In this document: in pieces, positions 2,889-14,223 of the stretch
How the letters are laid out: the number at the start of each line of letters is the position of its first letter
How positions within the stretch are numbered: the first letter of the stretch is position 1
DNA from: Gammaproteobacteria bacterium
GTDB lineage: Bacteria; Pseudomonadota; Gammaproteobacteria; Steroidobacterales; Steroidobacteraceae
DNA: 40,810 nucleotides
Assembly: GCA_025358615.1 (NCBI GenBank)
Contig: JANYIY010000411.1
Span: 1 to 40,810, forward strand
Direction of reading: 5' to 3'
Made by a program: the position numbers and the translations under genes
The notes under the pieces: generated by a model
Database searches by the model: none
What the model was told of the DNA's origin: nothing
The model's input: the letters and a program-made list of their open reading frames with translations, nothing else

Positions 2889-3719
2889 TCAGCGCCGGGT
2901 GATTACGATCTCAAGATATTCACTTGGAACGATCATGGTGCCGTCCGTCGCGCGATTGCACTTCGCGATCAGCGCCAGAAGATCCTGTTGCAGGGCGGCT
3001 TGCGCCGGTATGTCGAGTGCAGCGAATGCCTTGAGCACCGGGCCGTAGAACCCACCGAAGACCTCGATCCAATGCTGCGGCGAGCGATAGCGGAATACGA
3101 AGTGACGCTGCGCTGCTTCCACGGCGGCGGCGTGCGGTTGGAACAATTCGGTGATTCGCGCGCGGACACCCCATAGCGCAGGAGACTTGGCGCCGGGCGG
3201 AGGAGGCAAGTACTTGCCAATGGTTTTGAAGAGTTGGCCGATAAAGCTCTCGGGGGTCCAATTCGCAAGTCCGATCTTCCCGCCGCGCTTGCATACGCGC
3301 AGCATTTCGGCCGCCGCTCGCTCGTGATCCGGCGCAAATATGACGCCGAAGGTCGACACAACCACATCAAAGCACTCATCTTCGAACGGGAGCGCCTCAG
3401 CATCCGCCTCGCGGAATTCGATGTCCAGCCGCTCGGCCGCGGCCCGCTCGCGAGCCCGCTCGAGTAACGACGGCACATAGTCAGTAGCAATGACGCTGCA
3501 CCAGCGGCGGGCGGCCGCCAGTGAGACATTGCCATTGCCCGCGGCCACGTCGAGTACCCGCTCGTTGGAATGCAGATCGAGAGCCTCGCACAGTGATTCA
3601 CCCACGATCTGCAACGTCGTTCCGACGACGGAGTAATCGCCCGACGACCAGGCCGCTTGTTGCTTGCGTTTTAGGCCTGACAGGTCGACGGTATCGGTGG
3701 GTTTGACTACAGCGGACAT
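2889..3719 (-). CDS. Class I SAM-dependent methyltransferase
   Basis: 276 residues. Motif I of the Rossmann-fold methyltransferases is VLDVAAGNGN at 55-64; the acidic residue ending strand 2 is in VIATDY, motif II is in EADAEALPF, and the post-motif FDVVVSTFGVIFAP is present. This is the UbiE/COQ5-like Methyltransf_11 pattern. The C-terminal half is a substrate-specific cap (PPPPGAKSPALWGV) that does not reveal the substrate. An AGGAGA ribosome site lies just upstream of ATG 3719. The gene diverges from the XRE-STAND regulator across a 153-base spacer, so that regulator is a candidate controller. Confidence 0.88.
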   Translation of the reverse strand: MSAVVKPTDTVDLSGLKRKQQAAWSSGDYSVVGTTLQIVGESLCEALDLHSNERVLDVAAGNGNVSLAAARRWCSVIATDYVPSLLERARERAAAERLDIEFREADAEALPFEDECFDVVVSTFGVIFAPDHERAAAEMLRVCKRGGKIGLANWTPESFIGQLFKTIGKYLPPPPGAKSPALWGVRARITELFQPHAAAVEAAQRHFVFRYRSPQHWIEVFGGFYGPVLKAFAALDIPAQAALQQDLLALIAKCNRATDGTMIVPSEYLEIVITRR

Positions 3720-3872
3720 ATATCTTCTCCTGGAACGGGTTGGCTAGCTGATTCCTGAGCGCCATTTGGGTACAGGCGGTGGCCCAAGGGGTAGCGCAAA
3801 GCGGGACAAATGGCGGGACAATGGTCAGCGTATTCCCGGTAAACTTGCCGGTCTCGGCACGGGTGGGGCGGT
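3720..3872. promoter_or_regulatory. Divergent spacer with a tandem 12-bp repeat
   Basis: Intergenic region between the methyltransferase and the XRE-STAND regulator. It holds two adjacent near-identical 12-mers, GCGGGACAAATG (3801-3812) and GCGGGACAATGG (3813-3824), about one helical turn apart. An inverted partner of CAAATG, CATTTG, occurs some 40 bases upstream. The tandem spacing would suit an operator bound on one DNA face, possibly by the neighbouring regulator. No convincing -35/-10 pair was found. Confidence 0.35.
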
Positions 3873-6800
3873 ATGCGGGAATTGACGCAATCCTTTGGCT
3901 ATTGGTTGCGGCGCCGCCGAAAAGCGCTCGACCTTACGCAAGAGGGGCTTGCGGAACGCGTTAGTTGCTCCGGTTTCGCGATTAGAAAAATCGAAGCGGA
4001 TGAACGCAGACCGTCGTTACCGCTTGCCCATCGGCTGGCCGATGCGCTCGCCGTGCCGGCGCAGGAGCGGCGCGCATTTCTCGACGCCGCGCGCGCCGTT
4101 CGATCAGCGGCCCGGTTGCCGCTGGGCGAATCTCCGGCGGATGCCCCGCGCGAAGCGGCGATCTACGCCGATGGTGAAATGGCTGCCTTTGTCGGCCGCA
4201 GCAAGGAGTACGACGTGTTAGTCGAGCTCGTCGCCGGCCTCCGCGGCGGCAGCGGCAACACGGTGCTGATCGAGGGTGAGGCAGGGATCGGCAAGAGCCG
4301 CCTGATACGGGAGGTCGTGCGCTATGCCGAGTCCCTGGGATTGCACGCCATCGCGACCAATTGCTACGAGATCGAGCGCGCAATTCCCTATCAGCCCATC
4401 ATCAATCTGGTGATGCGTGCGCTTGAACGCACGTTGCCCTCCGCACTGAGCAAGCTGGCGCCCGTATCGCTTGCCGAACTGGCGGCGCTGGTTCCCGCGG
4501 TGGCGCAGCGGTTTCCACAATTGCCGGAACTGTCGCGGGATTTCCCGGAAGCGCGCCAGGCGCGATTGTCGCACGCCGTCGGGCAGCTGTTCGAAGTGGC
4601 GAGACACGGCCGCCACTCGATTCTGGTTGTCGATGATATCCAGTGGGCGGACGAGGCAAGCGCGCGCGTGCTTCATTACCTCGCTCAACACGTCGCCGAA
4701 CAACCCACGCTGATGATCTATGCTTATAGGGACGACGACCTTGCGAGCGACGATCGCCTCGCTTTACTGATCGAAAGCCTGCACCGCGAACTAGCTGCAC
4801 GGCGCCTGCCGCTGTCTCGATTACGCTTTGTCGATGCGAGCTCGCTGATCGGAGCATTCTACGGCTCCAAGCGGGAGACACCGTGGCTTGCGGCCCGTCT
4901 CTTTCAGGAGACGCAAGGAAATCCGTTCTTTCTTGTCTCGATATTGCAATCGCTGAGCGAGGGCGAGACGCAGATCGACGAGCGCGGCGCAAAAGGACCT
5001 GGCTTGTTGCCGGATGCCCTGCGTGCGGCAGTTCGTGTGCGCCTCTCCCACGTGCCAAAGAAGATCCGGCCAACCCTCGAAATTGCCGCGGTTCTTGGCC
5101 GGCGATTTGACTTCGATACCCTGCGTGAAGCGAGCAATGAACCCGAAGCGGACGCGCTCGATTCGATCGAGGCATTGGTGAAGCGCGGCTTCCTCAGGGA
5201 GGAAGCCGAAGACGGCATATACGACTTCAGTCACGACAAGGTGCGCGAGGTGGTTTACCGCGACATCGGCGGCGCCCGGCGTCGACGATTGCACCGCTGT
5301 GTGGCGGAAGCCCTCGAGCGTCGTGACGAAGGCGAGCCGCACGAACGCGATGCCCGCCTGTCGGAGCATTTTGAGCGTGCTCAAGAATGGTCCAAGGCGC
5401 TCAGGTATCTCGTTCTTACGGGCGAACGCTCGCTGGCATTGTTCGCAATGCGCGATGCGCTGCACTGGCTGGATCGTGCGATCGCACTATCCAAGGCTCA
5501 TCCCGAGGCCCTTGATTCGCGCCAACGGCTCGCGCTTTATGAGCGTCGTGGCGCAGCTCGCGCCCAGGCAGGACAGACCGAAGGGGCGGTGGCCGATATA
5601 CGCTATGTCATCGACAGTGCACGGGTGGCCGGTGAAAGCGAGAAGGCACGTGACGCGCTGATTCAGCTCGGCATGGCCTATCGACGCGCCGATCTGTACG
5701 AGGCGGCGACGACCTGTCTCAGCGAGGCATTGGCGGAAACCCGCAAATTACAAGATGAACGTCAGGCTGCCGGCATCCTGTATCACTTGGGGACCGTGGC
5801 TTGGAGCACCGGCGCGAACCAACAGGCAATCCCGGCTCATGAGGAAGCGGTATCCATTTGCGAAAGGCTTGGCCTCACGGACATCAACGCCGTACAGGCG
5901 TACCACGGACGTGGCGAAGCGTATTTTGCGAACGCGCAGCCCAAGGAGGCCATCGCATGCTTCGTTCGATCGCTGGAGCTCGCTCGCCAAATTGGCGACA
6001 AGGCCTATGAATCCGAGAATCTGATGATGATCGGGCACTCATGGGTGGGCGGCAAAGGACTTGGCGATTACGCCCGGGCGGTGAGTAATTTCGATGCCGC
6101 GTTGGAGATTGCCTATACCGCCGACCTGCAGTGGCACATGGGGCCAACGCTACTTGGGCTCGATCACGTACGCGCCTGTATGGGAAGTTACGGCGAAGCT
6201 TGGACAGGCATGCAGAAGACCATTCGCTGGCTCGAAGGTCTCAAGCAAGTTCGCTATCAACTCATCGCCTACGACTACGTCGGCGAATTATTGCTCGATC
6301 TGCACCTGAATGAACAAGCTGTCGAGCATATGGAACGCGGCCTCGCGCTGTCACGCGCCTCGGGCATCAATTTCTGGCGCACGGCATTGGAGGCGCATCT
6401 CACGGTCGCGCGAATGCGTCTTGGCAGAAATCCCGGCACTGCCGCGCTCGAGACGGTTCTCGCGCGCACGCGCGGCGCCGCCGAGCGCTATCTCATGATC
6501 CCATGCCTCGACGCTCTGGCGGAAGTTGCGCTGGCAGCGGGCGACTCACAGCGATGCCGGGAATTTGCCGGCGAACTGCTGATGCTGGCCGAATTGAGCG
6601 GCCTGCGCGAAGTGGCGGCTCGTGCTCGGCGCTGGCTCGGTGAGGTGTTTCTCGCAGAGGCCGCCCACAATGAGGCGCATGCCGAGTTGTCGCGCGCGGC
6701 GGCGTTGGCGCAAGGCGTCGGGCGGGTGCGGTTGCAGATGGACTTGGAACTTGCGCTTGCCAGAGCATCTGTGGTGTGCGAGCGGCAACAAGAGGCCCTT

Positions 6801-6887
6801 CTGCACGAGCGCAATGCCCGCGCGATTCGCGAGAGGATCGAGAGTAGTCTCGATTCGTCGGGGCTGGAGGCACGATTATCGCGCTAG
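3873..6887 (+). CDS. XRE-HTH / STAND ATPase / TPR transcriptional regulator
   Basis: 1004 residues. Residues 5-70 are an XRE-type helix-turn-helix (LRRRRKALDLTQEGLAERV, then IRKIEADERRPS). A STAND/AAA ATPase follows, with FVGRSKE at its start, Walker A GEAGIGKS at 135-142 and Walker B ILVVDDIQWADE at 249-260, then a winged-helix-like region. From about residue 490 to the end there are Ala/Leu-rich TPR-like helical pairs. Such proteins act as ATP-dependent switches: the TPR part senses a ligand or partner and the N-terminus binds DNA. The fusion of an XRE head to a MalT/AfsR-like body is well known, but its target here is unknown. The divergent methyltransferase operon and the downstream sugar locus are the nearest candidates. 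Confidence 0.88.
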   Translation: MRELTQSFGYWLRRRRKALDLTQEGLAERVSCSGFAIRKIEADERRPSLPLAHRLADALAVPAQERRAFLDAARAVRSAARLPLGESPADAPREAAIYADGEMAAFVGRSKEYDVLVELVAGLRGGSGNTVLIEGEAGIGKSRLIREVVRYAESLGLHAIATNCYEIERAIPYQPIINLVMRALERTLPSALSKLAPVSLAELAALVPAVAQRFPQLPELSRDFPEARQARLSHAVGQLFEVARHGRHSILVVDDIQWADEASARVLHYLAQHVAEQPTLMIYAYRDDDLASDDRLALLIESLHRELAARRLPLSRLRFVDASSLIGAFYGSKRETPWLAARLFQETQGNPFFLVSILQSLSEGETQIDERGAKGPGLLPDALRAAVRVRLSHVPKKIRPTLEIAAVLGRRFDFDTLREASNEPEADALDSIEALVKRGFLREEAEDGIYDFSHDKVREVVYRDIGGARRRRLHRCVAEALERRDEGEPHERDARLSEHFERAQEWSKALRYLVLTGERSLALFAMRDALHWLDRAIALSKAHPEALDSRQRLALYERRGAARAQAGQTEGAVADIRYVIDSARVAGESEKARDALIQLGMAYRRADLYEAATTCLSEALAETRKLQDERQAAGILYHLGTVAWSTGANQQAIPAHEEAVSICERLGLTDINAVQAYHGRGEAYFANAQPKEAIACFVRSLELARQIGDKAYESENLMMIGHSWVGGKGLGDYARAVSNFDAALEIAYTADLQWHMGPTLLGLDHVRACMGSYGEAWTGMQKTIRWLEGLKQVRYQLIAYDYVGELLLDLHLNEQAVEHMERGLALSRASGINFWRTALEAHLTVARMRLGRNPGTAALETVLARTRGAAERYLMIPCLDALAEVALAAGDSQRCREFAGELLMLAELSGLREVAARARRWLGEVFLAEAAHNEAHAELSRAAALAQGVGRVRLQMDLELALARASVVCERQQEALLHERNARAIRERIESSLDSSGLEARLSR

Positions 6888-6906
6888 TCTGGGTGTCGAA
6901 TCGTCC

Positions 6907-6941
6907 GGATCACATCGCCTTCCATGATCTGCATGTGATCC
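6907..6941. terminator. Inverted repeat between convergent genes
   Basis: GGATCACAT (6907-6915) and ATGTGATCC (6933-6941) form a perfect 9-bp stem around a 17-base loop, in the 56-base space between the ends of the regulator and the isomerase gene. There is no T-tract, so it is a weak terminator candidate; it may instead stabilise mRNA ends. Confidence 0.35.
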
Positions 6942-6943
6942 TG

Positions 6944-7849
6944 TCAGTTCATGGCGTGCAAGTAGGCGTACGCATGCCGAGCCGCCTCCACTTGGCTCAT
7001 ACGCGCGAACGGCCCTTCCTGTTCCACGAAGTAGTGCTGTAAGCCTGCCTTCGATGCGGCTGCGAATATCGGCTTGTAGTCGATGATGCCGTGGCCCAAT
7101 TCGGCTCCGGCAGGTTCGGTTTCCTTGCCGTCATTCGCACCTTTGCTGGGCGGCAAGAAGTCCTTGACGTGAATCATCGGAAAACGATTTGGATATTTCT
7201 TGAAATAGTCTACGGGGTTGCCGCCACCCAACACCATCCACCCGCAGTCGATCTCGAACTTCACCAGTTCCGGGTCGGTTTCGCGCAGCATGAGGTCGTA
7301 GCCGGTAGCGCCACCGCCTTGGTCGACCAGTTCACCATGGTGATTGTGATAGGCGTATTGAAGCCCGGCTTGCTTGGCCTGCTCGCCTATTTTATTGGCG
7401 AGTTCGGCTGATCGCTTTGCTTCCTCCAGAGTCATCGCCTGTGGTGCATTGACGAGCGGTGGACGCAAACTGGGGCGCAGATTGCCGCTGGTGGCGTAAT
7501 GTGCGCCCAGTGCGTGCGCATTCTCGAAGGTTGCGCCCAGATTGGCCATATCGAACTGCAGATGTGCGCTGGGACAGGCCAAGCCATTGTCATCGAGCAG
7601 CTTGCGAAATTCCTTCGCTGACAAATTACCGAAACCGGCCGTTTCTACTTCGGCAAAGCCGATGTCCTTGATGGCCTTGAGCGTGCCCGCCGGATTCTCC
7701 TTGATGCCGGCGTTGACCGCATAGAGCTGAATTCCCATGGGTTTGCCCAACGGATTGGAAAATGCGCGCGGCAACCAATTGGCTGCACAAATCACCGCAC
7801 TCAAGCCACCCGACCGGATGAGGAATCTTCTTCGGGACAATGATTTCAT
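6944..7849 (-). CDS. Tat-exported sugar phosphate isomerase/epimerase family protein
   Basis: 301 residues from ATG 7849; the longer track start lacks support, while this one begins with a clear Tat signal (SRRRFLIRSGG). The mature part is a xylose-isomerase-like TIM barrel. Candidate metal ligands are visible in order: Glu in AEVETAGFG, His in CPSAHLQF, His in YAYHNHHGE, Asp in FEIDCGWM, His in MIHVKDF and Glu in FVEQEGP. Members of this family act on keto-sugars, inositols and, in known pathways, on 3-keto-glycosides. Export suggests work in the periplasm next to the GMC dehydrogenase. It diverges from the operon beginning at 7939, consistent with shared control. Confidence 0.88.
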   Translation of the reverse strand: MKSLSRRRFLIRSGGLSAVICAANWLPRAFSNPLGKPMGIQLYAVNAGIKENPAGTLKAIKDIGFAEVETAGFGNLSAKEFRKLLDDNGLACPSAHLQFDMANLGATFENAHALGAHYATSGNLRPSLRPPLVNAPQAMTLEEAKRSAELANKIGEQAKQAGLQYAYHNHHGELVDQGGGATGYDLMLRETDPELVKFEIDCGWMVLGGGNPVDYFKKYPNRFPMIHVKDFLPPSKGANDGKETEPAGAELGHGIIDYKPIFAAASKAGLQHYFVEQEGPFARMSQVEAARHAYAYLHAMN

Positions 7850-7938
7850 GTTTGCTGCCTCCACCGTAGATGATAGCGATATTACATTTACGGAACCGAT
7901 ATAGACTAGCTGGATAACTATGTGGGGTCCTGCCGGAA
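7850..7938. promoter_or_regulatory. Divergent promoter region of the sugar locus
   Basis: The 89-base AT-richer spacer must hold promoters for both the exported isomerase and the keto-glycoside operon. Two copies of CGATAT (7877-7882 and 7897-7902) are 20 bp apart, two helical turns, which suits a regulator site. A TATAGA (7900-7905) could serve as a plus-strand -10, but no good -35 is seen. Weak evidence. Confidence 0.3.
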
Positions 7939-8163
7939 ATGGTGCAGTCTGCAAGCTATGACGCGATTGTGGTCGGCTCCGGGCATACGCTCGATACGTT
8001 GCCGGCCCACTATTTCCACATGATGAAGCCACTCGCGTTGCTCGGCTACTTCACGTCTGAGATCGGTTGTACGAAGGCGTTGCGCTACGTCGAGTCGCCG
8101 GGCCGCTTCGATCCCTGCACTACATGGACCCCGGGTGACCCGGCTTGGGCGTCGCATGCCTGA
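7939..8163 (+). pseudogene. Fusion remnant: GMC oxidoreductase N-terminus joined to small-subunit C-terminus
   Basis: 74 residues in one open frame. The first 15 (MVQSASYDAIVVGSG) match the start of a GMC dehydrogenase, including the beginning of the FAD-binding GxGxxG motif; compare NYDVIVVGSGAAGG in the intact GMC gene at 11807. The rest (MKPLALLGYFTSEIGC, ALRYVESPGRFDPC, PGDPAWA) matches the C-terminal end of the gluconate 2-dehydrogenase subunit 3 family as I know it. The order GMC then small subunit is the order of the intact pair downstream. The simplest reading is one deletion that removed most of both genes and kept the frame. Its TGA overlaps the ATG of the next gene, so translation of the scar may still couple to it. 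It cannot be an active enzyme. Confidence 0.75.
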
Positions 8164-9322
8164 GCGCGCCGCTAACAGTGGACTCGTTCGACCACTGCCT
8201 CGACTGCGTGCCGGCATCGTCGGCGGCGGCCGCGGCGCATTCATCGGGTCGGTGCATCGCATGGCCGCTGAGCTCGACGGTCAGGCACTGGTAGTGGCAG
8301 GCGCCATGTCCTCGGATCCAGCTACCGCCCGCCAAAGTGCGGCGGCATGGTGTCTCGAACGCAGCTACGACTCCTATGCGCAAATGGCCCTTGACGAAGC
8401 GGCCGACGAGGGCGGCATTGATTTCGTCATCATTGCAACCCCCAATCACCTGCACTACCCGGTAGCGAAGGCATTCCTGACGGCCGGGATCCACGTCATC
8501 TGCGACAAACCTCTCGCCTTCACGGTTGCGGAGGGAGAAGAACTGGTCCGCCTTGTCGAAGGAGGCACGACACTGTTTGCGCTCACGCACAATTACACGG
8601 GCTACCCGGCGGTGCGCCAGGCGCGCGAGATGGTGAGAACCGGACAGTTGGGCGGCATTCGCAAGGTCATGGTGGAATACACCCAGGACTGGCTGATGCA
8701 ACCGCTGGAGGACCGTGGCAACAAGCAGGCTGAATGGCGAACGGATCCGGCGCGGGCCGGTCTCGGCGGCTGTGTCGGCGATATCGGTTCGCACGCCGAG
8801 AATCTGCTGGAGTTCATCACGGGCCTCAAGATCGAGGCGTTGTGCGCTGATTTGAGCTGTGTCGTTACCGGCCGCCGCTTGGATGACGATGGCAATATAC
8901 TGTTGAGACTGAGTGGCGGAGCCAAGGGGACGTTGCTGTGCTCACAGATTGCCTGCGGGGAGGAGAACCGGCTGTCCATCCGTGTGTATGGATCGGAAGC
9001 GGGGTTGGAGTGGCACCAGCAGGAACCGAACACGCTCATCTACAAAGCCGCCGGCAAACCGTGGATGCACTTACGTACGGGACAGAACTATATGAGCGAG
9101 CCGGCTAAAGCAGCGGCGCGAATGCCGGCCGGACATCCCGAGGGCTACATCGAGGCCTTTGCGAATATCTACCGTGGTTTCATCGAGGATGTGCGCTGCG
9201 TCGGTTCCGGCCAAGCACCGCTTCGAAGCTACCCTGGGGTTCAAGATGGCTTGCGCGGCTTGCGCTTCATTGAACGAGCGGTGGCAAGTTCGAAGTCCGG
9301 ATCGGTCTGGCTCAGGATGTAG
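8156..9322 (+). CDS. Gfo/Idh/MocA family oxidoreductase
   Basis: 388 residues from ATG 8156, which overlaps the stop of the remnant by eight bases (ATGCCTGA). The N-terminus holds a Rossmann motif (AGIVGGGRGAFIG) and FVIIATPNHLH, followed by the family's catalytic-lysine motif as CDKPLAF. The C-terminal alpha/beta domain carries GGCVGDIGSHAENL, including the conserved Asp and His. These NAD(P)-dependent enzymes oxidise or reduce sugar hydroxyl/keto groups. In 3-keto-glycoside pathways a member interconverts 3-keto-glucose and glucose in the cytoplasm. No signal peptide is present, in line with that role. It is followed six bases later by the permease gene. Confidence 0.92.
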   Translation: MPERAANSGLVRPLPRLRAGIVGGGRGAFIGSVHRMAAELDGQALVVAGAMSSDPATARQSAAAWCLERSYDSYAQMALDEAADEGGIDFVIIATPNHLHYPVAKAFLTAGIHVICDKPLAFTVAEGEELVRLVEGGTTLFALTHNYTGYPAVRQAREMVRTGQLGGIRKVMVEYTQDWLMQPLEDRGNKQAEWRTDPARAGLGGCVGDIGSHAENLLEFITGLKIEALCADLSCVVTGRRLDDDGNILLRLSGGAKGTLLCSQIACGEENRLSIRVYGSEAGLEWHQQEPNTLIYKAAGKPWMHLRTGQNYMSEPAKAAARMPAGHPEGYIEAFANIYRGFIEDVRCVGSGQAPLRSYPGVQDGLRGLRFIERAVASSKSGSVWLRM

Positions 9323-11806: not shown

Positions 11807-13606
11807 ATGCCCTTCGTAACCGCGGAAACCTTACAGAGCAACTACGACGTCATCGTGGTGGGTTCTGGGGCCGCCGGCGGGCAGTCGGCGTATACGCTGA
11901 CCATGGATGGCGCCAAGGTCCTCATGCTCGAGGCCGGGCGCAATTACTCCGCAAGCGAGTCGTCCATGTTCCGCACCCCGGATCTAGCGCCTCTGCGTGG
12001 TGCCGACACGCCGGACAAACCCTTCGGGTTCTACGACGCCACCGTCGATGGTGGCTGGAACGTTCCCGGTGAGCCCTATGTGCGCGCGAGTGAAGATCAT
12101 GCAGGCCGCTTCGAATGGTGGCGGGCGCGCATGCTGGGCGGCCGTACCAATCATTGGGGACGCATTTCGCTGCGCAACGGGCCCTATGACTTCAAGCCGA
12201 AAGCCCGGGATGGACTGGGTTTCGATTGGCCCATTGGTTACGATGATGTCGCCCCATACTACGACAAGGTCGAATTGCTGATCGGCGTGTACGGCAGTAA
12301 CGAGGGTCTCGAAAACACACCGAATTCGCCACCCGGCTGCCTGCTGCCGCCGCCCATGCCCTTGGTCAGCGACCACTTGATACGGCAGCGCGCGAAGAAA
12401 TTGGGGATTCCCGTGATACCCGGTCACCGCGCAGTGCTGACTCGGCCTCTCGATTACAAGCATGCGCCGGCGCGGCTGCATCCAGGCAACGCGACGGCGC
12501 AGAAAATTCTGATGGAGGACATGCGCAGCCGCAGCCCCTGTCTATGGGCGACCCCTTGCGGGTCCGGCTGCGCCGTCCGCGCCAATTATCAATCGACCAC
12601 CGTGCATTTGCCGCCCGCCCTCAAGACTGGAAACCTCGACATCATCACCGATGCGATGGTCTATGAAGTAACCCTGGGGCGCGACGGCCGGGCCAACGGC
12701 GTCAACTTCGTCGACCGGATCAGCGGCAAGCATCGGCACGCCGCCGCGAGGGTGGTCGTACTGGCCGCGAGCGCCTGCGAGACAGTACGAATTTTGCTCA
12801 ACTCCAAGAGTGCGCAGTTCCCGCAAGGCCTCGGGAATTCGAGCGGCAAAGTCGGGCGATACCTGATGGATACCGTGGGCTCCGCGGTGGGCGGCCAAAT
12901 TCCGCTGCTCGAAAATCTGCCGCCGCTCAATGAAGACGCTGCCGGCGGCGATCAGATGTACGTCCCTTGGTGGTTGTACCGTGAGCAGCACGCAGGAAAA
13001 CTCGGCTTTGCCCGCGGCTACCACATCGAATTCGGCGGCGGCAAACGCATGCCCGGCCACAACACGGGCGCCGGTCTCGAATGGCTCACCGGCGGCAGCT
13101 ACGGGGCGAAATTCAAGCAGGACGTGCGACGCTATTACGGTTCCTTCGTCTGGTTCAGCGGCCGCGGCGAGATGATCCCCAACGATCAATCGTTCTGCGA
13201 GATCGATCCGCGCGTCAAGGACCGGTGGGGAATCCCGGTGCTGCGTTTTCATTGGCAATGGTCGGAACACGAGCGGCGGCAGGCCGCCCACATGCAAAGC
13301 ACCTTTGCGGACATCATAGACGCCATGGGCGGGCGAACGCAGCACGCCGTGCAGAGCGACGGCGCCAAGGCCATCGCTTCCGGCGGCTCCATCATTCACG
13401 AGGTCGGCGGCGCCATCATGGGATCCGATCCCCAGACTTCGGTGACGAACTCCTGGGGCCAGACCTGGGACGTGAGCAATCTGTTCATCAACGACGGCGC
13501 CGTGTTCGCATCGAATGCGGACAAGAATCCGACGCTCACCATCATGGCTTTGGCATGGCGCGCGTCGGATCATATTCTCGGGCGCATGCGACGCAAGGAG
13601 CTGTAA
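11807..13606 (+). CDS. GMC-family FAD dehydrogenase, probable glycoside 3-dehydrogenase catalytic subunit
   Basis: 599 residues from ATG 11807; the track's earlier start runs back through the previous gene. FAD-binding GSGAAGG lies at 19-25 with LMLEAGRNY following, and GGRTNHWGR is the second GMC motif. The C-terminal active-site pair is His531 (IIHEVGG) and Asn574 (ADKNPTLT). Cys245, Cys251 and Cys255 (CLWATPCGSGC) fit the Fe-S cluster region of the FAD-glucose dehydrogenase subfamily. These enzymes oxidise a sugar hydroxyl and pass electrons to a cytochrome. There is no signal peptide, as in relatives that cross the membrane folded, carried by the Tat-tagged small subunit. That subunit is encoded next, with a TAATG overlap. 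Confidence 0.92.
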   Translation: MPFVTAETLQSNYDVIVVGSGAAGGQSAYTLTMDGAKVLMLEAGRNYSASESSMFRTPDLAPLRGADTPDKPFGFYDATVDGGWNVPGEPYVRASEDHAGRFEWWRARMLGGRTNHWGRISLRNGPYDFKPKARDGLGFDWPIGYDDVAPYYDKVELLIGVYGSNEGLENTPNSPPGCLLPPPMPLVSDHLIRQRAKKLGIPVIPGHRAVLTRPLDYKHAPARLHPGNATAQKILMEDMRSRSPCLWATPCGSGCAVRANYQSTTVHLPPALKTGNLDIITDAMVYEVTLGRDGRANGVNFVDRISGKHRHAAARVVVLAASACETVRILLNSKSAQFPQGLGNSSGKVGRYLMDTVGSAVGGQIPLLENLPPLNEDAAGGDQMYVPWWLYREQHAGKLGFARGYHIEFGGGKRMPGHNTGAGLEWLTGGSYGAKFKQDVRRYYGSFVWFSGRGEMIPNDQSFCEIDPRVKDRWGIPVLRFHWQWSEHERRQAAHMQSTFADIIDAMGGRTQHAVQSDGAKAIASGGSIIHEVGGAIMGSDPQTSVTNSWGQTWDVSNLFINDGAVFASNADKNPTLTIMALAWRASDHILGRMRRKEL

Positions 13607-14223
13607 TGGATCGGCGCACGACACTCAAGTGGGTGCTGGCCGCGAGTGCCGTGGGTCCGCTTCTGCGGCAACGCGACGCACGCGCGTACTCGACCCTGAC
13701 CGCGCGAGGTTACGGCACCGATCCGAATCTTGCGGTGAACTATCATCCGGGTGAACTGTGGCCGCTCACGATGACCAGCGTGCAGCGGCGGCTGGCGGGT
13801 ATTTTGTCGGACATCATCATTCCGGCCGATGATCACTCGCCCAGCGCCTCCACCGCCGGCGTGGTCGATTTCGTCGATGAGTGGGTGAGTGCGCCGTACA
13901 GCGATTTCCAACGAGACCGAGGAATCGTGCTCGGCGGCTTTGCCTGGCTTGACGCCGAAGGCGCCCGCCGCTTCGGTAAGGAATTCGTGGAGCTCGACTC
14001 CGCGGAGCAACTCAGCGTTTGCGATGACATCTGCGATGCGGCGCGTGCGGCGGATGCGCTGCGCGAGGCTGCTCGCTTTTTCGCACTCTACCGCGACTTG
14101 ACCGCCGGCGGATTTTACTCGACTCCCCTCGGCCGCAAAGACCTGGGCTACATGGGCAATGTACCCTTGGCGAGCTTTGATGGACCTGCGCCCGCGCTGC
14201 TCGAGTCGCTGGGCTTGTTGTAA
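13606..14223 (+). CDS. Gluconate 2-dehydrogenase subunit 3 family protein (small, Tat-carrier subunit)
   Basis: 205 residues from ATG 13606, whose A is the last base of the GMC stop. The N-terminus is a Tat signal (DRRTTLKWVLAASA). The body fits the small subunit that partners GMC dehydrogenases: LAGILSDIIIPADDHSPSASTAGVVDFVDEW near the start and GGFYSTPLGRKDLGYMG near the end. Its known role is to chaperone and export the catalytic subunit. The C-terminus (PALLESLGLL) differs from the PGRFDPC-type end preserved in the remnant at 7939-8163, so the two small subunits were of different subtypes. Confidence 0.9.
   Translation: MDRRTTLKWVLAASAVGPLLRQRDARAYSTLTARGYGTDPNLAVNYHPGELWPLTMTSVQRRLAGILSDIIIPADDHSPSASTAGVVDFVDEWVSAPYSDFQRDRGIVLGGFAWLDAEGARRFGKEFVELDSAEQLSVCDDICDAARAADALREAARFFALYRDLTAGGFYSTPLGRKDLGYMGNVPLASFDGPAPALLESLGLL

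Follow-up and report, generated by a model that had tools for sequence, protein, structure and literature searches.

How did a short open reading frame come to begin like one protein and end like another? The window analysed here, a whole stretch of 40,810 nucleotides from a gammaproteobacterium, carries such a frame at positions 7939-8163 of the forward strand: 74 codons, opened by an ATG and encoding 74 amino acids. The preliminary description had taken it for a fusion of the first codons of a GMC dehydrogenase to the last codons of its small subunit, and both the Pfam search and the alignments to the congener G017 agree with this. The first 15 or so codons (7939-7982, +) match the beginning of the GMC dehydrogenase gene gmcA of G017 and contain the start of the FAD-binding motif. 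Residues 1-15, MVQSASYDAIVVGSG, share 93% amino acid identity with the start of the G017 protein, and the underlying DNA is near-identical in G017 and in another congener, G014. A family search needs a longer sequence than 15 residues, and the proof of their gmcA origin is therefore drawn from these relatives. The start codon is the native gmcA start, and the DNA upstream of gmcA is also kept. The last 54 or so codons, with their native stop (8001-8163, +), match the end of the small-subunit gene dh3A. Residues 18-55 match the Gluconate_2-dh3 family (PF13618) with an E value of 7e-7, above the curated cut-off, and residues 6-74 are 71% identical in amino acids to the C-terminus of G017 dh3A. 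The match is confined to model positions 95-135 of a domain of about 135 positions, and the full domain is thus not present in the frame. The GMC oxidoreductase domains (PF00732/PF05199, FAD-binding and C-terminal catalytic) are also absent from the frame in the Pfam search. Because nearly all of the dehydrogenase, the N-terminus of the small subunit and two thirds of its domain are missing, the product would have neither enzymatic nor partner function.

The origin of the two parts becomes clear from the relatives. When 60 relatives were searched with mocA, the GFO/IDH/MocA oxidoreductase gene that follows the frame (8156-9322, +), G017 was found to carry a mocA of 88% identity. On contig C363 of this genome (locus L035), the order of genes is tim1 (minus strand), gmcA, dh3A, mocA, mfs, tim2 and gmcB, the last being cut by the contig end. 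The gene order in the window is the same except that gmcA and dh3A are missing. In G017, tim1 lies at 3625-4557 (-), gmcA at 4652-6334 and mocA at 7027-8178, and dh3A ends at 7034; the gmcA/dh3A pair spans 4652-7034, between the same neighbours that flank the scar in the window. Therefore an intact GMC and small-subunit pair does precede mocA in a close relative, as the preliminary description had expected. Since gmcA and dh3A are in different reading frames in G017, their join in a single frame would have been made by the deletion itself. The same tim1/gmcA/dh3A block is found in G014, where a contig break falls inside dh3A, and G020 also carries gmcA and dh3A; gmcA identity is 86-88% in both of these genomes. 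In two more distant metagenome-assembled genomes, mocA and mfs are separated by a related tim1-gmcA-dh3A block that is encoded on the opposite strand (L055 2987-6198 and L056 4296-7504). From this arrangement, the accessory module would seem to have moved or been inverted relative to the core operon.

The window still contains a complete pair of the other subtype. The dehydrogenase gene gmcB (11807-13606, +) encodes both Pfam domains, GMC_oxred_C and GMC_oxred_N, and is 88% identical to G017 gmcB; it is followed by the small-subunit gene dh3B (13606-14223, +; PF13618, E value 7e-22). The identity between gmcA and gmcB is 32-37%. Together with the gene order in G017, this value bears out the earlier proposal that the operon once had two dehydrogenase pairs of different subtypes.

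The DNA match between the window and G017 falls into two blocks, one breaking off near position 7982 (4695 in G017) and the other resuming at 8001 (6872 in G017), with 2176 bp of G017 replaced by 18 bases in the window. The absence of these 2176 bp is in accord with the deletion of roughly 2 kb that had been postulated. The idea that the head of gmcA runs directly into the tail of dh3A has to be modified: both parts are present, but they do not abut, being separated by the 18 bases GCATACGCTCGATACGTT (7983-8000, +), which encode HTLDTL and are assignable to neither side. These bases match neither flank in G017, and no match of at least 11 bases to them was found elsewhere in the window or on the same strand of C363. 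They probably represent the window lineage's own variable dh3A linker, because the linker just upstream of the conserved PAHYF motif varies strongly among relatives; they could instead be filler DNA. In G017, a 10-bp direct repeat, TACGACGCGA, is present at 4670 and 6831, near both ends of the stretch that is missing in the window, and a repeat of this length was attained in 2 of 200 shuffles. Slippage at this repeat was considered as the cause and rejected: the window keeps gmcA sequence beyond the left copy, and its junction is not at the repeat. Therefore simple slippage at TACGACGCGA does not give the observed product.

The lost pair does not seem to have been relocated. When the window's assembly was searched with the G017 DNA of the whole pair, the window's own fragments alone were matched. 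Protein queries with gmcA and dh3A retrieved nothing from this genome beyond the remnant itself and distant paralogues, while the same queries found the orthologues in G014, G017 and G020, which served as positive controls. The assembly is a fragmented draft of 492 contigs, and a missing pair could sit in its unassembled part; since it is 82% complete, the evidence for absence of gmcA and dh3A elsewhere in the genome is strong but not final.

If the 74-codon frame were a conserved gene in its own right, stand-alone copies would be expected in relatives. Such copies, which would have spoken against a deletion, were looked for and not seen. The 74-residue protein has matches in 43 of 396 genomes of the order, the window's own included, and in none of the 396 is there a stand-alone frame for the tail: all other matches lie in open frames of at least 178 amino acids, as expected for ordinary small subunits. 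Nor is the same scar shown in other species or on plasmids. Two plasmid matches, in Xanthomonas sacchari and Ketogulonicigenium robustum, cover at least 80% of the frame at 43-48% identity, and both lie inside annotated gluconate 2-dehydrogenase subunit 3 genes. Of the matches in the ten listed plasmid records, three are in genes with this annotation and the rest have no annotated gene beneath them. Literature searches on fused remnants, on the pathway and on this pair of enzymes yielded nothing useful.

The dh3A tail also appears to evolve differently from its surroundings. Relative to G017, its dN/dS is 0.25-0.29, on small numbers of substitutions, compared with 0.05-0.17 for five neighbouring genes. 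At five tail positions the window departs from a residue shared by three intact relatives, including the changes from KEL to KPL and from CIPY to CTTW. A broader comparison with subunits of the PAHYF type in other genomes (L162-L167) likewise shows the E of KEL and the P of CIPY unchanged. Third codon positions are not favoured among the substitutions that occur in the window alone. With so few substitutions, the excess of amino acid changes gives a Fisher p value of 0.046 against the neighbouring genes and of 0.11 against the G017-G014 tail comparison, and relaxed constraint on the remnant is suggestive only.

A second scar, which the preliminary description had not included, is present at the left edge of the syntenic region, on the far side of tim1. 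The gene tim1 (6944-7849, -), which encodes an intact xylose-isomerase-like TIM barrel (Pfam AP_endonuc_2), is divergent from the remnant and is 81% identical to the G017 tim1 in the same place. After tim1, both G017 and G014 have a full second TIM-barrel gene (also AP_endonuc_2); the nearest NCBIfam model to this gene is hydroxypyruvate isomerase, with a score far below the model cut-off. What is left of it in the window is an internal piece of about 14 codons and 41 nt, HMQIMEGDVIRTIR (6897-6937, -), recognised by its DNA match to G017. Just past the tim1 stop, window positions 6903-6937 match G017 2927-2961 over 35 nt with an E value of 6.6e-10; 33 of the 35 bases are identical, whereas the highest count among 30 shuffled contigs was 22 of 35. 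The tim1 stop and the HMQIMEGDVIRTIR motif are 6 nt apart in the window and 663 nt apart in G017. A query with the full second gene matches nothing in the window's genome but retrieves the gene from G014 and G017. Beyond this remnant, a gene for a 1004-aa HTH/AAA/TPR regulator (3873-6887, +) occupies the place that the TIM-barrel gene and a DUF1080-like (3-keto-disaccharide hydrolase) gene have in G017. None of the 22 other genomes in the genus has a relative of the regulator at an E value of 1e-40 or better. Since the second remnant is cut on both sides, the region around tim1 would have undergone, besides the gmcA/dh3A deletion, at least one and probably two further events.

Taken together, the 74-codon frame is very probably the residue of a deletion across gmcA and dh3A, which would form part of a gradual, piece-by-piece loss of a gene module. 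The deletion would have removed gmcA beyond its first 15 or so codons and about the first 180 codons of dh3A, or more (the 2176 bp in G017 coordinates), and would have spared the DNA upstream of gmcA, the gmcA start codon and the end of dh3A with its stop overlapping the start of mocA. RNA polymerase and ribosomes may still traverse the remnant on their way into mocA. The same locus would also have lost the second TIM-barrel isomerase gene beyond tim1, except for the 41-nt piece. Small subunits of the Gluconate_2-dh3 family are export and assembly partners of the dehydrogenase, and the lost gmcA/dh3A module presumably oxidised sugars, as the family in general does. Thus an accessory module, whose role in sugar oxidation is suggested by its family, was probably lost stepwise beside the retained mocA-mfs-tim2-gmcB-dh3B operon, which would now adjoin the DNA that once preceded gmcA.

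Two other readings compete with this one. It is very unlikely that the junction is an assembly artefact, that is, that the start of gmcA was misjoined to the end of dh3A and the living organism has an intact pair. The draft state of the genome and the 10-bp repeat near both ends of the missing stretch are compatible with such an error. However, an assembler would not be misled by so short a repeat, which moreover does not coincide with the junction, the missing 2.2 kb are in no other contig, the tail may show relaxed constraint, and another piece of the same module is left as a remnant at a distance of 1 kb. The possibility that the frame is a short gene of its own or a genuine functional fusion, for example a dominant-negative small subunit, can draw on the open frame and its native start codon, but it appears extremely remote: no relative searched has such a gene, only the last third of the domain is present (positions 95-135 of 135), and positions invariant in relatives have been altered.

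A further reading accepts the deletion, and is compatible with the preferred explanation, but adds that the frame is kept by selection, its translation as a leader being coupled to that of mocA. The TGA of the remnant (8161-8163) and the ATG of mocA (8156-8158) overlap in the 8-nt sequence ATGCCTGA, which is the same in G017; the identity extends over about 33 nt surrounding the start of mocA. The preliminary description was right that the frame has been kept and that its stop overlaps the mocA start. Its suggestion of selection for translational coupling is weakly supported: the very identity of the overlap and its surroundings in G017 indicates that the arrangement is ancestral and was inherited rather than newly formed, and a deletion joins two genes in frame by chance in one case out of three. 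Retention of the native start codon with the DNA upstream of it would suit a leader. On the other hand, the coding sequence of the tail appears to evolve faster than its neighbours, the RNA at the start of mocA folds no more strongly than shuffled controls (z -0.28), and related mocA genes manage without a gene of this kind ahead of them, there being no dh3A gene in front of mocA in the farther relatives (L055-L061). By consensus, neither an upstream sigma-70 promoter nor a terminator was found. On balance, selection of the frame as a leader is unlikely. It is quite unlikely, in particular, that the in-frame remnant persists because termination of ribosomes at the start of mocA is still required, so that a defunct enzyme pair would now serve as the translational leader of the operon that it once headed.

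Among known systems, the closest to the lost genes is the working pair of a GMC dehydrogenase and a Gluconate_2-dh3 subunit. The G017 gmcA is related to the catalytic subunits of glucose dehydrogenase (PDB 6a2u) and fructose dehydrogenase (PDB 7w2j), and G017 dh3A belongs to the Gluconate_2-dh3 family; the dh3A sequence itself found no chain in the PDB. Unlike such a pair, the frame in the window consists of the first residues of one protein and the last third of the other and, judged from its sequence, cannot be a working member of the system. The locus presents an accessory gene module lost stepwise beside a retained operon, and offers a concrete place for asking if translational coupling constrains the end points of deletions. 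The remnant is an ordinary kind of event, cleanly documented. It resembles the pseudogenes made by deletion in bacteria, with truncated ends of adjacent genes meeting at one junction, intact counterparts in relatives and a tail in which constraint may be relaxed. Unlike the usual pseudogenes of this kind, it is joined in frame and keeps both a native start and a native stop, features that could lead annotation software to list it as a small hypothetical gene. Deletions that span two genes can thus leave a small open frame fit for annotation, and 'hypothetical proteins' of this sort can be scars.
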